Below, piece by piece: positions 5,935-55,173 of a stretch of 64,000 nt of DNA. Position 1 is the first letter of the stretch. Each line of letters begins with the position of its first letter. A program made the translations under genes and the position numbers. The notes under the pieces were generated by a model that was not told the origin of the DNA, ran no database searches, and saw only the letters and a program-made list of their open reading frames with translations. The stretch is from Thermostichus vulcanus str. 'Rupite' (GTDB lineage: Bacteria; Cyanobacteriota; Cyanobacteriia; Thermostichales; Thermostichaceae), in assembly GCF_022848905.1 (NCBI RefSeq), contig NZ_JAFIRA010000016.1, positions 1-64,000 on the forward strand, given 5' to 3'.

Positions 5935-6681
5935 TCAAGCATCTGCTGCCGAGCGATCTTCGAATGTGGGTCGCCGCCGTTGTTGCCGACGTTTGGGCTG
6001 TTGTAGCGGGGCCTTTTGTTCAGGACGCTCCTGTCCAGGGAGAACCTCTCCTTTGAAGACCCAAACCTTGACCCCGATGATGCCAAAGGTGGTACGGGCA
6101 ACGTGCTCGGCGTAGTCGATATCCGCCCGCAGAGTATGCAGAGGGATCCGTCCTTCCCGAGTCCATTCGCTGCGAGCAATTTCTGCCCCATTCAATCGAC
6201 CGGCAATTTGGATTTTGATCCCTTGTACACCTGCCCGCTGCGCCCGCTGAATCACCTGACGCACAATGCGACGAAAGGCGATCCGCCGCTCCAACTGCTG
6301 GGCGATGTTTTCTGCTAGCAAGGCTGCTTCTGCATCGGCACGGGTCACCTCCACCACATTGATGCGAATCGCTCGCTCGGTGCCACCCTGGAGGCCGAGT
6401 TCCTTTTGCAAACCCTGACGCAAGGCGTCTAATCCAGATCCACCTCGACCAACGACCACCCCAGGCCGGGAGGCACGGACTTCCAAGTCAATTTGATCGG
6501 CTTTGCGCTCAATTTGGATATCCGCCAAGCCAGCACTGCTCAGTTGTTTACTCAAGTAGGTACGAATGTGCTCGTCCTCTTGCAACAAGGCCGGATAGCG
6601 AGCTGGATCGGCAAACCAGCGGCTGCGATGTTCTTTAATCACGCCGAGGCGGAAACCGTTGGGGTGGATCTTTTGTCCCAT
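5935..6681 (-). CDS. rpsC: 30S ribosomal protein S3
   Basis: S3 lines the mRNA entry tunnel and has helicase activity in the ribosome. It begins [20 protein letters not shown], contains the KH domain ([20 protein letters not shown]) and the C-terminal domain [17 protein letters not shown]. The last 35 residues form a very basic Arg/Gln tail ([14 protein letters not shown]) ending in an acidic tip. Length of 248 aa is typical for cyanobacteria. Confidence 0.97.
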
Positions 6682-6732
6682 GGTGGTGTTGTTTGAAAGG
6701 TCAAGGGCTAGGAATCAATGCGGAATAGAAAA

Positions 6733-7104
6733 TTAGGAGGCTGTTGCTGCTTCGGTTTCCATGGGCCGGACAGCAATGGTGATGTGACAGGTACGCTTGC
6801 GAATTTGGTAGGCCCGACCCTGGGCACGGGGCCGGAATCGTTTCAGCACTGGCCCCTGATCGGCGTAGGCTTGACTCACCACCAAGTCGCGGGGATCCAG
6901 TCCGTTGTTGTGTTCTGCATTGGCCACTGCTGAGCGCAGCACCTTGCGGATGGGTTCACAGGCGGCATAGGGCATAAACTCCAACAGGATCAGGGCATCG
7001 GCATAGGTGCGCCCACGGATTTGATCCAGCACCCGACGCACCTTGAAAGGCGACATACGGATGTAGCGAGCTACTGCTTTGATGTCAGATGAAGAATCAG
7101 CCAT
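6733..7104 (-). CDS. rplV: 50S ribosomal protein L22
   Basis: L22 contributes the beta-hairpin that narrows the peptide exit tunnel. The family core is clear: [20 protein letters not shown] at the start and [20 protein letters not shown] in the hairpin. Length is 123 aa. It precedes rpsC by 51 bases and follows rpsS by 46 bases. Confidence 0.96.
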
Positions 7105-12990: not shown

Positions 12991-13185
12991 TCCCTAATTG
13001 ATGGCCTAGATGAGCGTTCTCGGGACAGAGGGCAACCGCAAACAGGCATTGAACACCCGACGTGGATCTGCCGTTAAAAGGCTCAGGAAGGATATCTTCC
13101 TCCACAAGTGTTGCACGATAGCTTAAAGGGAAAAAGGAAAGGGCCAGATATGATAATCTAGGCCCCACAAACAAAATATTTAGCA

Positions 13186-14187
13186 ATGACTAGCTTAAGC
13201 TCTTTTCCGAGGATTGTCAAACCTCTACTGGCTAGCCTCCCTAGCCACGACTATCCGGTGATGAACACCCAATTGTTCGTCAAGATCTGGCTGACCTATA
13301 TTTTCGATAAATCAGTCACAAGCCTGAGAGACCTATTCTTCCAACTTAACCACAGCGGTGTGAAAGGTAGTTTATCTTCATTCTCTAGAGCGTGTTCAAG
13401 CCGGGGATTACAGTCTATCAATCGCTTATTTGTGGAATTGCTCCATCAAGTTCGTCATCGATCCAGCCGAAAAGATGTGATTATCTGCCCCTTTGACTCA
13501 ACAATAATTGGATTAACGAGTAAGCTCTTTTGGGCGGAGCACTATCATCAGGTCAAGCTGTTAACTTCATTAAATCAAGAGACACGAGCACCTAGCGAGT
13601 TGTTAATCCATTTTGGAGAGAGACATGACGCATATTTTGGGGAGTTAGTCTTAGGAATGATGAGAATGGCTTAGCAGTAGGGGATAGAGGGTTTGCGAGC
13701 AAAGAATTATTCAAGCAGTTTATCGACAGTGAAAATTTATTTCTAGTTCGCATCAATAGCCACTGGACTATCCATAATGATAGTTAATGATAGTTGCATT
13801 GATGTGGATGGGAAGAAGGTGAGGGTGGTTAGTTTTTGTGACCTAGAAAAGCGGACAGAGTATCGTTTAGCCACGAATGTGCCCCAAGAAGTGATGGGAG
13901 ATGAAGAGATTATTGAAGCGTACAGACAGCGATGGGGAATAGAGCTGCTATGGAAGTTTCTCAAGAGCCATCTAAAACTTGAGCGACTTGCGACAAAGAG
14001 TGTGAATGGAGTAACGATTCAAATATACATGGTGTTGATAGAGTATCTAATCTTATTGATGATAGAAATTCCGAAAGTGTATGGACAGAAATTACTAGAC
14101 AAGTTGAGATACATTCAACTGATTATCTATCAAGAAGGCAGTTTTGTGGCTTGGATAACCCGCATAGCTGGAGACCCTAAAATGTAA
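13186..14187 (+). pseudogene. IS4-family transposase, broken by two frameshifts
   Basis: Three consecutive frames together make one IS4 transposase. The first (to about 13660) carries the first catalytic Asp (CPFDSTIIG). The second (about 13662-13785) carries GLAVGDRGFASKELF with the second Asp. The third (to 14187) carries the Y-R-E-K signature YRQRWGIELLWKFLK. The first shift lies near 13655-13665. The second is caused by a perfect 10-bp tandem duplication at 13776-13795, and removing one copy restores WTIHNDSCIDVDGKK across the junction. The gene cannot make an active enzyme. Confidence 0.85.
13776..13795. repeat. 10-bp tandem duplication causing a frameshift
   Basis: AATGATAGTT is present twice in tandem inside the IS4 transposase reading frame. 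Removal of one copy rejoins the two flanking transposase frames exactly, so the duplication is the inactivating event or one of two. Confidence 0.9.
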
Positions 14188-14303
14188 AGTATTGTGTCTG
14201 AATGCAACACTTATGGGTAAGAAGAGATTGCCCATTTATCTGTGCGGCATCGTTCGCGAAGCGTCTTTGCAGGAGAAACCGCTTGCTTGGCGCTCCTATC
14301 CCT

Positions 14304-14325
14304 CCGCATCCACAAGGGGATGCGG
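14304..14325 (+). promoter_or_regulatory. Hairpin in the 5' leader of the methyltransferase gene
   Basis: CCGCATCC and GGATGCGG form an 8-bp perfect stem with a six-base loop, ending about five bases before the GGAGG ribosome-binding site of the gene at 14341. It could influence translation or be a remnant of a mobile element. Function is inferred only from position. Confidence 0.35.
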
Positions 14326-14340
14326 TTTCCCGGAGGTCAC

Positions 14341-15003
14341 ATGAATATCTATCGTCGGGTGATCTTCCCGCGGCTGTTGGATCTATCCCTCTCTGGAGAA
14401 ATCGTGGGATGCTATCGGCGGGAGCTTCTGGCCAATGTGCAGGGGGCTGTTCTGGAGATTGGGTTTGGTACCGGTCTTAACTTGCCCCACTATCCGCAGC
14501 ACGTCGAAAACATTACTGCGCTCGATCCTAACCCCGGTATGGGATCCCTGGCTCGTCGGCGCATCGCTTGTGCTTCTATTGCGGTCGATTGGCAGGAGGG
14601 GGATGCACAAGAATTGCCTTTCCCAAATCAAAGCTTTGACAGTGTTGTCAGCACCTGGACGCTGTGTAGCATTCCGGATTTGGCCAGGGCTTTGCAGGAA
14701 ATTCAGCGGGTGTTGCGAGGAGGGGGCAAACTGTTTTTTCTCGAACACGGCCTCAGTGAGGATCCCGAGGTTCAGAGATGGCAAAATCGCCTGAATCCCA
14801 TCCAGAAGGTGATCGCAGATGGCTGTAACCTGAATCGGGATATGGCCCAATTGATCCGTGAGGCAGGGTTCCAGTTTGAGGAACTGGAGCGATTTTATAT
14901 GCCCAATGAGCCTAAGTTTATTGGCTACATCTATCGAGGCATCGCGATTCCTGCTCCCGCGAGGAAACCAGAGCTTAAGGAGGAAGCTGACAAACCGAGG
15001 TAG
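14341..15003 (+). CDS. Class I SAM-dependent methyltransferase (UbiE/METTL7-like)
   Basis: The start at 14341 follows a GGAGG site and gives MNIYRRVIFPRLLDL. The open frame reaches further upstream but those residues are not family-like. SAM-binding motif I is VLEIGFGTGLNLPHYP, motif II the acidic ALDPNPGM, and the post-motif is LPFPNQSFDSVVSTWTLCSI. Membrane-anchor-like aromatic residues near the N-terminus and the order of motifs resemble small METTL7-like or phosphatidylethanolamine-type methyltransferases. The substrate is not predictable. Length is 220 aa. The IS4 element ends 124 bases upstream and may have changed its promoter. Confidence 0.8.
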   Translation: MNIYRRVIFPRLLDLSLSGEIVGCYRRELLANVQGAVLEIGFGTGLNLPHYPQHVENITALDPNPGMGSLARRRIACASIAVDWQEGDAQELPFPNQSFDSVVSTWTLCSIPDLARALQEIQRVLRGGGKLFFLEHGLSEDPEVQRWQNRLNPIQKVIADGCNLNRDMAQLIREAGFQFEELERFYMPNEPKFIGYIYRGIAIPAPARKPELKEEADKPR

Positions 15004-49324: not shown

Positions 49325-50260
49325 ATGGTGACCACGCAAGAACGATATCAGGGATCCCTGCTGGGTCTGGCGGTGGGGGATGCCCTCGGAACCACTCTGG
49401 AGTTCAAAGCTCCCGGATCCTTCACACCGCTGACCGAGATGAAGGGGGGCGGCCCGTTTAACTTACCCCCCGGTTACTGGACAGACGACACCTCGATGGC
49501 CCTTTGTCTGGCGGAAAGCCTGCTCATTTGCGAGGGGTTTGACCCTGCCGACCAAATGAACCGCTACGTGGACTGGTGGCAAAACGGTCATCTCAGCTCC
49601 ACCGGCGAGTGCTTCGATATTGGCAACACCGTCCGCAGTTCCCTGGCTCGTTACCTGAACGACGGGGATCCCTATAGCGGCTCTAGCTCCCCTAGATCTG
49701 CCGGTAATGGATCCTTGATGCGCTTGGCCCCGATTCCATTATTTTTTCTAGGGGATCCCCACCTCGCTTTGCAGCGGGCTGCCGACAGTTCCCGCACCAC
49801 CCATGCCGCCCCCACCTGTCTGGATGCCTGTCGCTACTATGCCGGGTTGATCATCGGGGCTCTGCAAGGGATCCCGAAGTCTGACCTACTGACCCCTTAC
49901 TTCTCTCCAATTGCTGATGATTGGGCCGCTCGACCCCTAACCGATGAGATTGCCGAAATTGCCGCCGGATCCTTTCGACAGCGCCAACCCCCGGAAATTC
50001 AGGGATCCGGCTATGTGGTTAAGTCGCTGGAGGCGGCTCTCTGGGCCTTTTATCACAGTGAGAGCTTTGCTGAAGGGGCGCTGCTGGCGGTGAATTTGGG
50101 GGATGATGCCGACACCACCGGGGCCATTTACGGACAACTGGCCGGAGCCTACTACGGGAAGCAGGAGATCCCGGAGTCCTGGCTGGAGACCCTCGCCATG
50201 CGCGAGACTATCGAAGACTACGCCACTCAGCTCCACAAGGCTGCACGGAACCAGCTTTGA
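49325..50260 (+). CDS. ADP-ribosylglycohydrolase (DraG-like)
   Basis: The family removes ADP-ribose from proteins or small molecules using two metal ions. The metal sites are in YWTDDTSMALCLAESLL and LGDDADTTGAIYGQLAGA, and the start GLAVGDALGTTLEFK is characteristic. All key Asp residues are present. Length is 311 aa. No ADP-ribosyltransferase or nitrogenase gene is nearby, so it probably reverses another modification. Confidence 0.9.
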   Translation: MVTTQERYQGSLLGLAVGDALGTTLEFKAPGSFTPLTEMKGGGPFNLPPGYWTDDTSMALCLAESLLICEGFDPADQMNRYVDWWQNGHLSSTGECFDIGNTVRSSLARYLNDGDPYSGSSSPRSAGNGSLMRLAPIPLFFLGDPHLALQRAADSSRTTHAAPTCLDACRYYAGLIIGALQGIPKSDLLTPYFSPIADDWAARPLTDEIAEIAAGSFRQRQPPEIQGSGYVVKSLEAALWAFYHSESFAEGALLAVNLGDDADTTGAIYGQLAGAYYGKQEIPESWLETLAMRETIEDYATQLHKAARNQL

Positions 50261-50725: not shown

Positions 50726-51185
50726 TCATGCGGAGCACGATGCGCCTCTACTGACTCCACTGAGGTCAAGCCCCAATGTTGCCGCTACTTTCCGGAGTAT
50801 ATTGGCAGCTCCATTGCCATCCGCATTCAGATACCCATTTCCTGCGGTTCGATAGAGTCCTCGTTTGACACGCCGTCCTGACGCTTTCCAGCCTTCGGGT
50901 TTTTCACCGTATTGGGGAAGAGCGTCCTTGTCCAGAAAACTTGCTGCTGAAGTATTCGCTTCCTCTGTTTCAACAAATCGGATGCCATACGGCTGGCAAA
51001 GCTGAGATGCTCTCTGCTTCAACCGGGCGGTGGGAATTTGGACAAACTGCTGATTCATTTTTCGCCCCATGTTGGCTGGGTCTTTTTGCCTTGGGTTCCA
51101 GTCAAAGACAACCGTTCCGGCCCTCCCGGACTTATGGTGATCAAGGATTACTAAGGCCAGAAAGCTGCCAATAATCTGGCTCTGA
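50726..51185 (-). pseudogene. TnpB C-terminal remnant (element 3)
   Basis: Only the C-terminal third survives. The frame runs from about 51185 through TVVFDWNPRQKDPANMGRKM, FVQIPTARLKQRASQLCQ and FVETEEANTSAASFL to YLNADGNGAANILRKVAATL. This matches the cyanobacterial TnpB-like subgroup with a QIPTARL and VETEEA signature. The N-terminal two thirds, including RuvC-I, are absent. The RuvC-III Asp (NADGNGAAN) is preserved, and the usual zinc-ribbon cysteines are missing here too. Confidence 0.75.
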
Positions 51186-51365: not shown

Positions 51366-51950
51366 TTAAAGGGCTGTAATGTTGGTAAACCCATACCCTT
51401 GTCGCTTGATTACCTTGATCCGGTTGTTGATTCCCTCCATGATGCCACTGGTCACACGATTGGCAAAATACTGACAGATTCCCTGAAGATGATTCTGGAT
51501 TGTTTTCACCACATCGGTGTAGATTCTTCGAACATCTTTCAGCCATGCGACTATTTGAACCTCTCCTTCTTTTACGGTGATCCTGCTCTCGAAAATGCTT
51601 CGTAGTCTTTCTTTCAGTGTATAGGCTTGCCTCAGTTGTTGACTTTGTCTTAAATAGATTGCTAGTTTTGCTTTTTCTTCCGCAGTTAAGTCTTCATTAT
51701 TCTTAAGTATGATTCTTCTTGAGCCTTTTTCTGTGAGTCGAGACTGTCGTCTAAGTCTGTCTAATTCTTTGGCAGCTTTCTGCATCACATGAAATCTGTC
51801 ATAGACAATATGTGCTTTGGGAAATACCGGCTTGACTAGCCTGGCAAATCCAGCCCACATATCGATGCCAACCTCTTCGATATTCAGCCTCTCTTCCTCT
51901 GTCCATAGGCTTTCTAAGAATTGATTGAAATCTGAGGTGATAGGGGGCCT
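51366..51950 (-). pseudogene. ISL3-family transposase remnant
   Basis: The frame carries the catalytic region of an ISL3 DDE transposase: EEVGIDMWAGFARLV (Asp), AHIVYDRFHVMQKAAKEL (Asp), and near the end FANRVTSGIMEGINNRIK (Glu), followed by KRQGYGFTN. The N-terminal zinc-finger part and the C-terminal tip are missing. The left part of the frame (from about 51950) lacks a start codon. It is a dead fragment beside TnpB element 3. Confidence 0.8.
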
Positions 51951-52214: not shown

Positions 52215-52565
52215 CTACCACTTCGGCTTGGGGATTTTGATTTGAGGGGTCAGAGGAATCGCTGCTGAGGCAATGGTACTAATGGCACTGATAATAGCTG
52301 TGGCAACCACAGCCTCACCACCGGCAACCGCTTCCAACTCTTCATCAGAGAGTTCACCAGCATCTTGACGCTCGCCAAATTCCGCTTGGCGTTTCTGCAC
52401 TTCTTCCCAAAGCTCGTCGGGAGTGACGTCATAGCCTTTGCTAACAGCAAGCTGGGCGGCAGCACCCCGATCATCCTCAGCTTCCAGAGCTTTCGCCAAC
52501 TCTTCTAGCAAAGAGGCATCTTCTCCCACCTTATCCAAAAACTCAGCAGCAGCTTGAGTGCTCAT
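52215..52565 (-). CDS. Nif11-type RiPP precursor peptide 1
   Basis: The 116-aa product has a Nif11 leader (MSTQAAAEFLDKVGEDASLL) with the conserved YDVTPDELW segment, ending at the double-glycine site ELEAVAGG (residues 82-83). The predicted core of 33 residues is hydrophobic (EAVVATAIISAISTIASAA, then IPLTPQI) and ends KIPKPKW. It has Ser and Thr but no Cys. The start at 52565 is chosen because it gives the family N-terminus; the frame reaches 52595. The leader is close to that of precursor 2 while the core is unrelated except for the last seven residues. An enzyme modifying or cleaving it may be the MBL protein at 53704. Confidence 0.85.
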   Translation of the reverse strand: MSTQAAAEFLDKVGEDASLLEELAKALEAEDDRGAAAQLAVSKGYDVTPDELWEEVQKRQAEFGERQDAGELSDEELEAVAGGEAVVATAIISAISTIASAAIPLTPQIKIPKPKW

Positions 52566-52714
52566 ATTGAAGACCCAATAAACGAACAAGAACAATTTAC
52601 CATCAAACAGTCGCAGTCAATTATTAAGAATTACTAAGGCTTCTTCCCTAGGGATCCCAATAAGCTATCCCCTCAACGCAATTTCAACTGCTGCCGAGGT
52701 GCGCTAATCAAGAC

Positions 52715-52777
52715 TTACCACTTGGGTCTTGGCAAGGAGGATTATTCGAGAAATGCGTTAACAGCCTCTATGCTCAT
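52715..52777 (-). pseudogene. Third Nif11 precursor, internally deleted remnant
   Basis: On the minus strand a 21-codon unit reads MSIEAVNAFLE, stop, SSLPRPKW, stop, in a single frame. The first part is the N-terminus of a Nif11 leader and the last part is the PKW tail of a core peptide, while the middle (about 90 residues) is gone. A GAGG-like ribosome-binding sequence precedes the ATG. It is therefore the scar of a third precursor gene located between the two intact ones. Confidence 0.65.
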
Positions 52778-52814
52778 GATCCTCACTTCAGGGTTGAAAT
52801 GAGATGGTATAGCC

Positions 52815-52857
52815 AAAAAAGAGCGGCTTGGACAATGGATATCACTAGGCCGCTCCA
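52815..52857 (-). terminator. Intrinsic terminator of precursor 2
   Basis: GAGCGGC (52821-52827) pairs with GCCGCTC (52849-52855) around a long loop. On the minus strand the structure is followed by TTTTTTGG. It ends transcripts from the nif11 gene at 52904-53245, so precursors 1 and 2 are separate units. Confidence 0.6.
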
Positions 52858-52903
52858 AAAGATATCTGCTAGTTCACACGCTACATATTTAGGCAGAAAA
52901 TAT

Positions 52904-53245
52904 TCACCACTTGGGCTTAGGAATCTTGGGCAAGGGGAAGGGCAGACCACCCCCTGGGCCCCCAGGAAAGCCAGGGATTGTGACAGGGACTGTGAGCGTT
53001 GGCCCTAAGAAGCCCCCTGCAACAGATTCAAGTTCTTCATCACTCAATTCAGTACCCGCTTCTGCCTGACGCTTTTGGACTTCTGCCCATAGTTCGTCGG
53101 GAGTAACGTCATAGCCTTTGCTAATGGCTAGCTGAGCTACAGCGGCTCGATCATCCTCAGCTTCCATAGCTTGCGCCAATTCGTTCATCAAAGCTTCATC
53201 CTCTGCGACTTTTTTGAGAAAGTCGCTGACAGCTTCTGCACTCAT
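52904..53245 (-). CDS. Nif11-type RiPP precursor peptide 2
   Basis: The 113-aa product starts MSAEAVSDFLKKVAEDEALM, carries the same ISKGYDVTPDELWAEVQKRQ leader segment as precursor 1, and ends its leader with ELESVAGG (77-78). The 35-residue core is proline- and glycine-rich (LTVPVTIPGFPGGPGGG, then LPFPLP) and ends KIPKPKW like precursor 1. There is no Cys, and the only hydroxyl residues are three Thr. The start at 53245 follows the family pattern; an ATG nine bases upstream also exists. An intrinsic terminator lies downstream. Confidence 0.85.
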   Translation of the reverse strand: MSAEAVSDFLKKVAEDEALMNELAQAMEAEDDRAAVAQLAISKGYDVTPDELWAEVQKRQAEAGTELSDEELESVAGGFLGPTLTVPVTIPGFPGGPGGGLPFPLPKIPKPKW

Positions 53246-53703: not shown

Positions 53704-55173
53704 ATGCATGATATTCTAACTTTTGCTCGCGGATCCCAGTTCTTGGCCGTAAATGGCAACGACCAGATTTGCTATGCCGTGCAGCCATTGATACAGGCAC
53801 TGTTGCAGGATTTTGTAGATACCCATGACCTAGGGCTTTCCATACAGCGGGGACTGCAGGTGCAACCGGAGGTGGCCGAGGCTTTATTCGACATTGACCT
53901 GGACTCGCCAGAGCCCTTTTCCCTCAAGCCGCAGTTCCTATTCCCGGAAACGAACCCCCTGCTGGGTCTTTTCTTTAGCAATACCCGGATCCCGTCTTTT
54001 TTGCGTAGAGAGGGGCGAGAGGCTATTCAAGATGAGGCCATCTTGCCGGCGATTCATCAGTTGCTGGCACAGTGTGGTCGCGGCACCCAAACCCGTCAAC
54101 AGATTCTGGAGCAGCTGCCAGAAGAGGTTCATCCCCTGTTGGAAAAGTTAATCGCCTCTCAGGTCTTGGTGGAGCAACCCTATACTCCTGTTGCAGCTCC
54201 TTTGGGATCGAGTGGGGTTTATCGCCTACAACATGCCGCACTCCTTTACCGCTCGGGCACCACAGGTATTTTGGTGGATCCGCAGTTTCACTCCAACTAC
54301 GGGCGGGAAGGACTCAAAGCCGATATCACCCGCGCCATGGTGGAAGGTCAAGTGGATGCCATACTCATTTCCCACAGCCATTATGACCACTGGCATTATC
54401 CCACCCTGATGATGTTTCCTGCGGATATCCCGGTGATTGTGCCCAAAGTGCCTCGGCCCAGCTTGATGTGCGAAGACATGGAAGGACGCTTGCGCAGCCT
54501 GGGGTTTGAGCAGGTCATCGCGGTAGATTGGTATGCCGACCCGATTCGGATTGGGGATATTGATGTGCGTGTGCTGCCCTTCTACGGGGAGCAACCCTTG
54601 GTGCCCCGATTTGACAGCCCACAGCATCCCGACCTGCGCAACTGGGGCAACACTTACCTACTGCAATGCGAAGAATTCACTTCATGGTTCTTGATCGATG
54701 CGGGGTTTGAGCCGGCGGCTTCGATGGTGGAGGTAGCCGAATATGTGCGGGATCGCTTTGCACCTTTGGATCATTTGATCAGCAATTTTCAAGCCCTCTC
54801 CTACAATTCCATTGGTACCGACCTCTCCAGCTGGGGGGTTGATATTGTTGCCAACCTACTCAGCAACCCGCGTATTTTTTCGGTCACTAATGAACAGGAG
54901 GGCGGCTACATCGCCACTTTAGGACCCGCAGGCGTCGCCGAACTCAGCAGCATTACTCAAGCCAAAGCCTGCTTACCCTATGCCGATAGCTGGTCAGACT
55001 TGGGAACCCCTGGGATCCATGATCGAGAACTGATTGAGGCTACCCTCGTGGAACTTCAAAAACGGGGTGCGGCAACGGCAGTGATCCCTTGGCACATTGG
55101 GGATGGCTATGTCTACTCCAAAACGGGATCCCCTCATCAACTGCTTCGGAATGCCATTCGTTCAGGGCGTTGA
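53704..55173 (+). CDS. MBL-fold metallohydrolase with N-terminal PqqD/RRE-like segment
   Basis: The C-terminal part (about 175-485) is a metallo-beta-lactamase fold. HSHYDHWH (residues 227-234) is the HxHxDH metal motif, LIDAGFEP provides a further metal Asp, and PWHIGDGYVY a late His. Residues about 110-162 (AILPAIHQLLAQCGRGTQTR, then QILEQLPEEV) resemble the winged-helix PqqD/RRE domain, which binds RiPP leaders. The divergent neighbour genes encode Nif11 precursors. Together this suggests a maturation hydrolase, by loose analogy with PqqB. Starts at TTG 53695 or 53698 are possible; residue numbers are counted from 53695. The stop codon lies in a transposon end (55170), so the C-terminus may be truncated. 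Confidence 0.75.
   Translation: MHDILTFARGSQFLAVNGNDQICYAVQPLIQALLQDFVDTHDLGLSIQRGLQVQPEVAEALFDIDLDSPEPFSLKPQFLFPETNPLLGLFFSNTRIPSFLRREGREAIQDEAILPAIHQLLAQCGRGTQTRQQILEQLPEEVHPLLEKLIASQVLVEQPYTPVAAPLGSSGVYRLQHAALLYRSGTTGILVDPQFHSNYGREGLKADITRAMVEGQVDAILISHSHYDHWHYPTLMMFPADIPVIVPKVPRPSLMCEDMEGRLRSLGFEQVIAVDWYADPIRIGDIDVRVLPFYGEQPLVPRFDSPQHPDLRNWGNTYLLQCEEFTSWFLIDAGFEPAASMVEVAEYVRDRFAPLDHLISNFQALSYNSIGTDLSSWGVDIVANLLSNPRIFSVTNEQEGGYIATLGPAGVAELSSITQAKACLPYADSWSDLGTPGIHDRELIEATLVELQKRGAATAVIPWHIGDGYVYSKTGSPHQLLRNAIRSGR

Follow-up and report, generated by a model that had tools for sequence, protein, structure and literature searches.

Why should two precursor peptides with otherwise unrelated cores end in the same seven residues? 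This question is raised by a locus in the 64,000-nucleotide stretch of Thermostichus vulcanus str. 'Rupite' that we analysed (contig NZ_JAFIRA010000016.1, positions 1 to 64,000; here called the window). The first-pass annotation had suggested that the conserved tail is either a follower-type recognition site or something that the product itself needs, such as a modified Trp.

Two Nif11-type precursors share a C-terminal tail

Both precursor genes are encoded on the minus strand. Precursor A (52215 to 52565; 116 aa from ATG) has an Ala/Ile-rich core, and precursor B (52904 to 53245; 113 aa from ATG) has a Pro/Gly-rich one. They pass the curated cut-offs of both Nif11 profiles, TIGR03798 (cut-off 32.3 bits) and PF07862, with 36.3 and 32.9 bits for precursor A and 44.3 and 44.5 bits for precursor B. 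In the two translations, a VAGG double-glycine site is followed by cores of 33 and 35 residues, EAVVATAIISAISTIASAAIPLTPQIKIPKPKW and FLGPTLTVPVTIPGFPGGPGGGLPFPLPKIPKPKW, which are unrelated to each other apart from the identical last seven residues, KIPKPKW. A common tail on otherwise unrelated cores had been reported from the first reading of the DNA and proved to be true. When the two cores were shuffled 200,000 times, a common C-terminal run of four residues arose once and a run of five never. Moreover, the tail and stop are encoded as AAA ATC CCC AAG CCG AAG TGG TAG in precursor A (52215 to 52238, minus strand) and as AAG ATT CCT AAG CCC AAG TGG TGA in precursor B (52904 to 52927, minus strand). 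These differences at synonymous sites indicate that the identity does not stem from recent copying and that the peptide is under selection, and they rule out a recent duplication as the source of the tail. A third copy with an internal deletion (52715 to 52777, minus strand) reads MSIEAVNAFLE*SSLPRPKW*; its LPRPKW end, noted earlier as well, is real, matches the tail pattern and has a counterpart in a congener (L024), where a degraded copy occupies the corresponding place in the array.

This congener (G006) carries a homologous array of three intact precursors ending in KIPKPKW and a broken copy ending in LPRPK*. The neighbouring CmlA-like gene, described below, is 93% identical between the two genomes, and neither this gene nor the tail pattern was found in the other four congeners searched. 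Compared with the congener copies, dN/dS is 0.04 to 0.06 for precursor A, 0.03 for precursor B and 0.057 for the CmlA-like gene. A functionless tail, inherited by common descent or spread among the precursor copies by gene conversion, would fit the tandem arrangement of the copies and the presence on contig C19 of 77 bp that are 98.7% identical to the end of precursor A. Nevertheless, we regard this as very improbable, given the synonymous differences within the tail, precursor dN/dS values of 0.03 to 0.06 and the presence of a Lys-Trp end in distant genera with different cores. On contig C2 of the congener (L025, 5140 to 10569), two more Nif11 ORFs have the tails APKVKW and PPKPKW and are followed by OTCase-like, transporter-like, 215-aa and ATP-grasp (DdlA-like) genes, possibly another tailoring set.

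The neighbouring gene resembles CmlA and FrsH

The neighbour of the precursors, initially labelled MBL, lies at 53704 to 55173 on the plus strand and encodes a metallo-beta-lactamase-fold protein of 489 aa from ATG, a putative non-heme diiron oxygenase. A profile built from 16 homologues gave as its best sequence matches CmlA (E=2.6e-14) and 8a90, which is FrsH, a non-heme diiron monooxygenase (E=4.6e-11); the aligned segment begins where the MBL domain starts, includes HxHxDH and extends as far as the Glu after 'LPF.G'. FrsH (8a90) and CmlA were also the top Foldseek matches of the AlphaFold2 model (pLDDT 79, pTM 0.85). With VIA-align, the matches to FrsH (Z 24.5) and CmlA (Z 22.1) cover almost the full model, beginning at residue 1-3 and ending at 471, whereas other rows reached comparable Z but matched mainly the MBL domain. 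An ordinary hydrolase or peptidase was rejected as the leading view on this basis, as CmlA and 8a90 are the best sequence matches and only CmlA and FrsH fit over nearly the whole length.

The HSHYDH motif (residues 224-229; 54373 to 54390, plus strand) contributes H224, H226, D228 and H229, which are invariant in the 16 homologues, as are E296 and D332, the latter a candidate for the Asp ligand. Glu296 (54589 to 54591, plus strand) aligns with the Glu after 'LPF.G' of CmlA and FrsH, and from this alignment we infer that it would act as a metal ligand in place of the third-motif His. Position 428, the candidate C-terminal His ligand, is Asp in 8 homologues and His in the other 8, and confidence in the model is low around the metal site, where loops such as residues 295-302 have pLDDT <50. 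An RRE-like docking domain was suspected at the N-terminus, with no family match to back it.

CmlA, of the chloramphenicol pathway, and FrsH, of the FR900359 pathway, beta-hydroxylate amino acids on carriers (PMC7794379, PMC7785958). The protein encoded here is like them in its whole-length two-domain fold, the HxHxDH motif and the Glu after 'LPF.G', although overall identity is 14-19%. A further difference is that the substrates of CmlA and FrsH are amino acids bound to NRPS carrier domains (PMC7794379), whereas the partners here are RiPP precursors; no NRPS gene was found among the loci read. Taken as modelled, the protein is a putative CmlA/FrsH-type diiron beta-hydroxylase. Distant CmlA-like relatives (31%) are also present at L160 (9612-11132) and L161 (9185-10774); transporter genes and another MBL-fold gene lie with them, and no Nif11 precursor was found in these two neighbourhoods.

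The Lys-Trp end tracks with the CmlA-like gene across cyanobacteria

The distribution of the tail was evaluated in a phylum scan of 386 cyanobacterial genomes and in a further scan of named genomes, which gave 11 more loci. Among the 386 genomes, the CmlA-like gene is present at full length in the window's genome (G000), G037, G116, G126 and G257. Nif11 ORFs with a P[KR]PKW end were read in G000, G037, G116 and G126 (phylum scan; two secondary matches left out), and all four have the full-length CmlA-like gene. The other matches to the PKPKW DNA pattern that were read, those in G006 excepted, are short or non-Nif11 frames and were discarded.

As the first-pass annotation had anticipated, the tail co-occurs with the MBL gene. 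A terminal Lys-Trp was found in 36 of the 43 GG-type precursors on loci with the CmlA-like gene (14/15 genomes) and in none of the 24 unlinked precursors (0/5 genomes), in a tally whose entries are not independent, whose linked set includes some NHLP-type precursors and whose small control is dominated by two genomes and has one doubtful entry. Conservation is confined to the final W (-1) and the K before it (-2); a further K occupies -4 in 25/36, and -3 is P, I or A. The idea that the tail is common among relatives needs narrowing: a terminal KW, usually K-x-K-W, extends beyond this locus, and KIPKPKW itself is local to the genus. Linked precursors without the tail, named at the outset as what would count against the association, do exist as a minority. 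They end in W alone (GGW, SW), have neither K nor W, or are decayed copies, such as those without the Trp codon that end in LPKAK* (L067, 2044-2301) and LPRPK* (L024, ~6418-6805, in the congener). In G026 (contig C17; L209, 9679-11299), four Nif11 precursors have the ends RGW, RQW or SGW and so lack the Lys at -2; the same contig encodes a weak CmlA-profile protein (13091-14527), and the genome has a U570-family prenyltransferase (see below).

Overall, these results indicate that selection maintains the tail and that its link is to the CmlA-like pathway and not to LanM alone. They also bear on a role of the tail in the activity of the mature peptide, e.g., as a cationic-aromatic membrane anchor of a hydrophobic peptide, without being an enzyme substrate. 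Most KW-ending cores are hydrophobic and 31/36 are Cys-free, which makes it plausible that the product is linear and membrane-active, with K-x-K-W at its end. This role leaves unexplained why the tail tracks with the CmlA-like cluster and why Pro/Gly-rich cores have the same tail, and other Nif11 products do without it; we therefore hold it to be improbable.

Relatives encode a fuller cluster with a predicted prenyltransferase

The relatives have further genes after or around the CmlA-like one, encoding a 2OG-Fe(II) oxygenase, two proteins that we call U570 and U602, and a zinc-type alcohol dehydrogenase homologue. The cluster further holds a second CmlA-like MBL, a JmjC protein, a LanM, encoded in most relatives, and a C39 exporter set. 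U602 (~600 aa; L064, 3219-5024, and relatives) is found with the CmlA-like gene at most of the relatives' loci that lie on a sufficiently long contig; it has no sequence match in Pfam, NCBIfam or PDB and is perhaps, by its sequence, an alpha-toroid.

In the model of U570, the N-terminal ~390 residues form five alpha-alpha-beta-beta repeats. The best 50 VIA-align matches of this domain are all ABBA aromatic/amino-acid prenyltransferases, of which the Trp/indole enzymes CymD (Z 16.7) and MpnD (16.4) rank first, ahead of DMATS1 (16.1), and the best Foldseek matches are PriB and DMATS1, with E of about 5e-5. U570 is therefore predicted to be an ABBA-fold indole/Trp prenyltransferase, a call that comes from a model of pLDDT 78.5 at 7-12% sequence identity. 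CymD and the other ABBA-fold indole/Trp prenyltransferases have the fold predicted for the N-terminal domain of U570; they differ in acting mostly on free Trp or small indoles, besides the 7-12% identity. The family was found in 15/386 genomes, including every genome with a full-length CmlA-like gene (truncated in G000), and is sometimes fused to a 2OG-Fe(II) domain.

Homologues of U570 without a CmlA-like gene adjoin precursors whose cores end in Trp, end in Tyr (G373) or are Trp-free (G174). In G365, the adjoining Nif11 precursor has the core ACWRWSG, which is also the core in the mpp cluster described for Moorena producens, a cluster whose annotation includes a prenyltransferase (PMC11791876). 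The mpp cluster is like the present one in its Nif11 precursor, LanM, predicted prenyltransferase and Trp-bearing core (PMC11791876), and differs in its short lanthionine core, its brominase and arginases, and the absence of a KW tail. At L198, no full CmlA-like partner was found. The Nif11 precursors beside the U570-family prenyltransferase of G373 (L202, 10821-11496) end in AYCY and DDDFY, and this might be a Tyr-accepting variant.

The locus in the window's genome is incomplete

Of this cluster, only the CmlA-like gene and the precursors are intact in the window's genome. U602, the dehydrogenase and the second CmlA-like gene have been lost in a clean deletion of ~6.1 kb, which starts after the first ~180 residues of U570 and ends midway through JmjC. 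As a result, the prenyltransferase of this genome is truncated to about 180 aa; in relatives, an ABBA-fold protein is encoded next to the precursors. LanM and the C39 exporter were not found in the genome, a 120-contig draft, and the genes between which they lie in the congener are here without them. A lanthipeptide was rejected as the product of this strain, with no LanM found in the genome and no Cys in either core.

The array has also been rearranged. A TnpB C-terminal remnant (50726 to 51070, minus strand; weak partial match to NF040570) and an ISL3-family transposase remnant (51366 to 51860, minus strand; partial ORF, PF01610 156.9 bits) lie beside it, and the copy of the precursor A end on contig C19 (L027, 5249-5325) adjoins a glycosyltransferase gene, the one found at the edge of the congener's array. 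An ADP-ribosyl-glycohydrolase-like gene (Tri1/DraG family, under the curated cut-offs) was observed at 49325-50260, upstream of the transposase remnants.

The remnants joined by the deletion still have low dN/dS, and the loss therefore looks recent. At most the CmlA-like step could remain in this strain, and the pathway may be decaying. We give an even chance to the explanation that the locus is a remnant of a dead or dying pathway with an inherited tail, which is compatible with Trp tailoring in the relatives. The clean cut through the prenyltransferase-to-JmjC operon, the missing LanM and C39-type exporter, the deletion in the third precursor and the nearby transposase remnants all argue for it. 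Conversely, neither the CmlA-like gene nor the two precursors are damaged, and their dN/dS is low, although this average mostly predates a recent loss, and the draft state of the assembly tempers the missing genes.

Discussion

The two possibilities proposed for the tail in the first-pass annotation no longer stand level. Because the clusters encode a CmlA/FrsH-like diiron hydroxylase and an ABBA-fold prenyltransferase, a modified Trp now leads, and a follower site is the weaker of the two. We consider it somewhat probable that the common tail marks one RiPP family in which tailoring takes place mainly on the C-terminal Trp, recognised in the context of the Lys residues. The invariant terminal Trp, the Trp-type prenyltransferase fold and the CmlA-like oxygenase together make this the best explanation.

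In the complete pathway of the relatives, the ABBA-fold enzyme would most likely prenylate the indole of the terminal Trp. The CmlA/FrsH-like diiron protein would most likely act as the beta-hydroxylase of an amino acid, plausibly this Trp again. The Lys at -2, and usually at -4, would provide local recognition for the terminal Trp, which would keep the tail fixed while the remaining core diverges, and the exporter would cut the leader at the Gly-Gly site. We infer both the chemistry and the role of Trp as the substrate of either enzyme. By analogy with FrsH, which acts on leucine, the CmlA-like enzyme could instead act on core Ile, Val, Leu or Pro. Other observations also weigh against Trp tailoring. 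The window's genome keeps the tail and its Trp despite the cut prenyltransferase, though the deletion may be recent. In addition, a few linked precursors lack KW, and the cores beside some U570 homologues end in Tyr or are Trp-free. The most specific version, in which a CmlA-type diiron beta-hydroxylase and an ABBA indole prenyltransferase act on a ribosomal peptide to give a prenylated and/or beta-hydroxylated, cyclomarin-like C-terminal Trp, is put forward as a tentative possibility.

A K-x-K-W tail might alternatively be a follower-type recognition or processing signal, bound by enzymes that modify other residues and possibly removed later; the targets would be Ser/Thr for LanM, Pro for the 2OG oxygenases and aliphatic residues for the CmlA-like enzyme. 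A tail fixed on both Ala/Ile-rich and Pro/Gly-rich cores suits such a signal, a Trp with two basic residues is a plausible docking motif, and the cluster encodes several enzymes whose likely targets differ. Set against this, the tail is not tied to LanM, since LanM clusters outside the CmlA-like set have tail-less Nif11 precursors; no C-terminal cleavage enzyme was found; and Trp is the substrate to be expected where a cluster protein has the fold of a Trp prenyltransferase. We judge such a signal unlikely.

For the modification of a terminal Trp there is a precedent, as PalQ prenylates the conserved C-terminal Trp of an NHLP precursor (PMC10853753). The PalX/PalQ pair of Paenibacillus alvei resembles the system described here in its leader-type RiPP precursor, conserved C-terminal Trp and dedicated prenylating enzyme (PMC10853753); it differs in its NHLP leader and in that PalQ belongs to the isoprene synthase superfamily and does not have the ABBA fold. 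The Nif11-type precursors, including prochlorosins (TIGR03798), have the same Nif11 leader, Gly-Gly site and paralogous arrays, together with the LanM of the relatives. However, typical Nif11 cores are hypervariable to the end, whereas the KW-tailed cores are mostly Cys-free with a fixed K-W end. In the literature searched on CmlA with RiPPs or lanthipeptides and on Nif11 with metallo-beta-lactamases, we found no description of a system pairing a CmlA-like enzyme with Nif11 precursors. KW-tailed precursors are easily overlooked, since most of their cores are Cys-free and one large lanthipeptide survey dropped candidate ORFs with a Cys-free core (PMC7268733).

The rule that emerges is that the core diverges and the terminal Lys-Trp stays, next to a gene that resembles a diiron oxygenase and not a hydrolase. 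If Trp tailoring is true, ribosomal peptides would join the substrates of CmlA-type chemistry, and a C-terminal Trp tailoring system would be added to those known.
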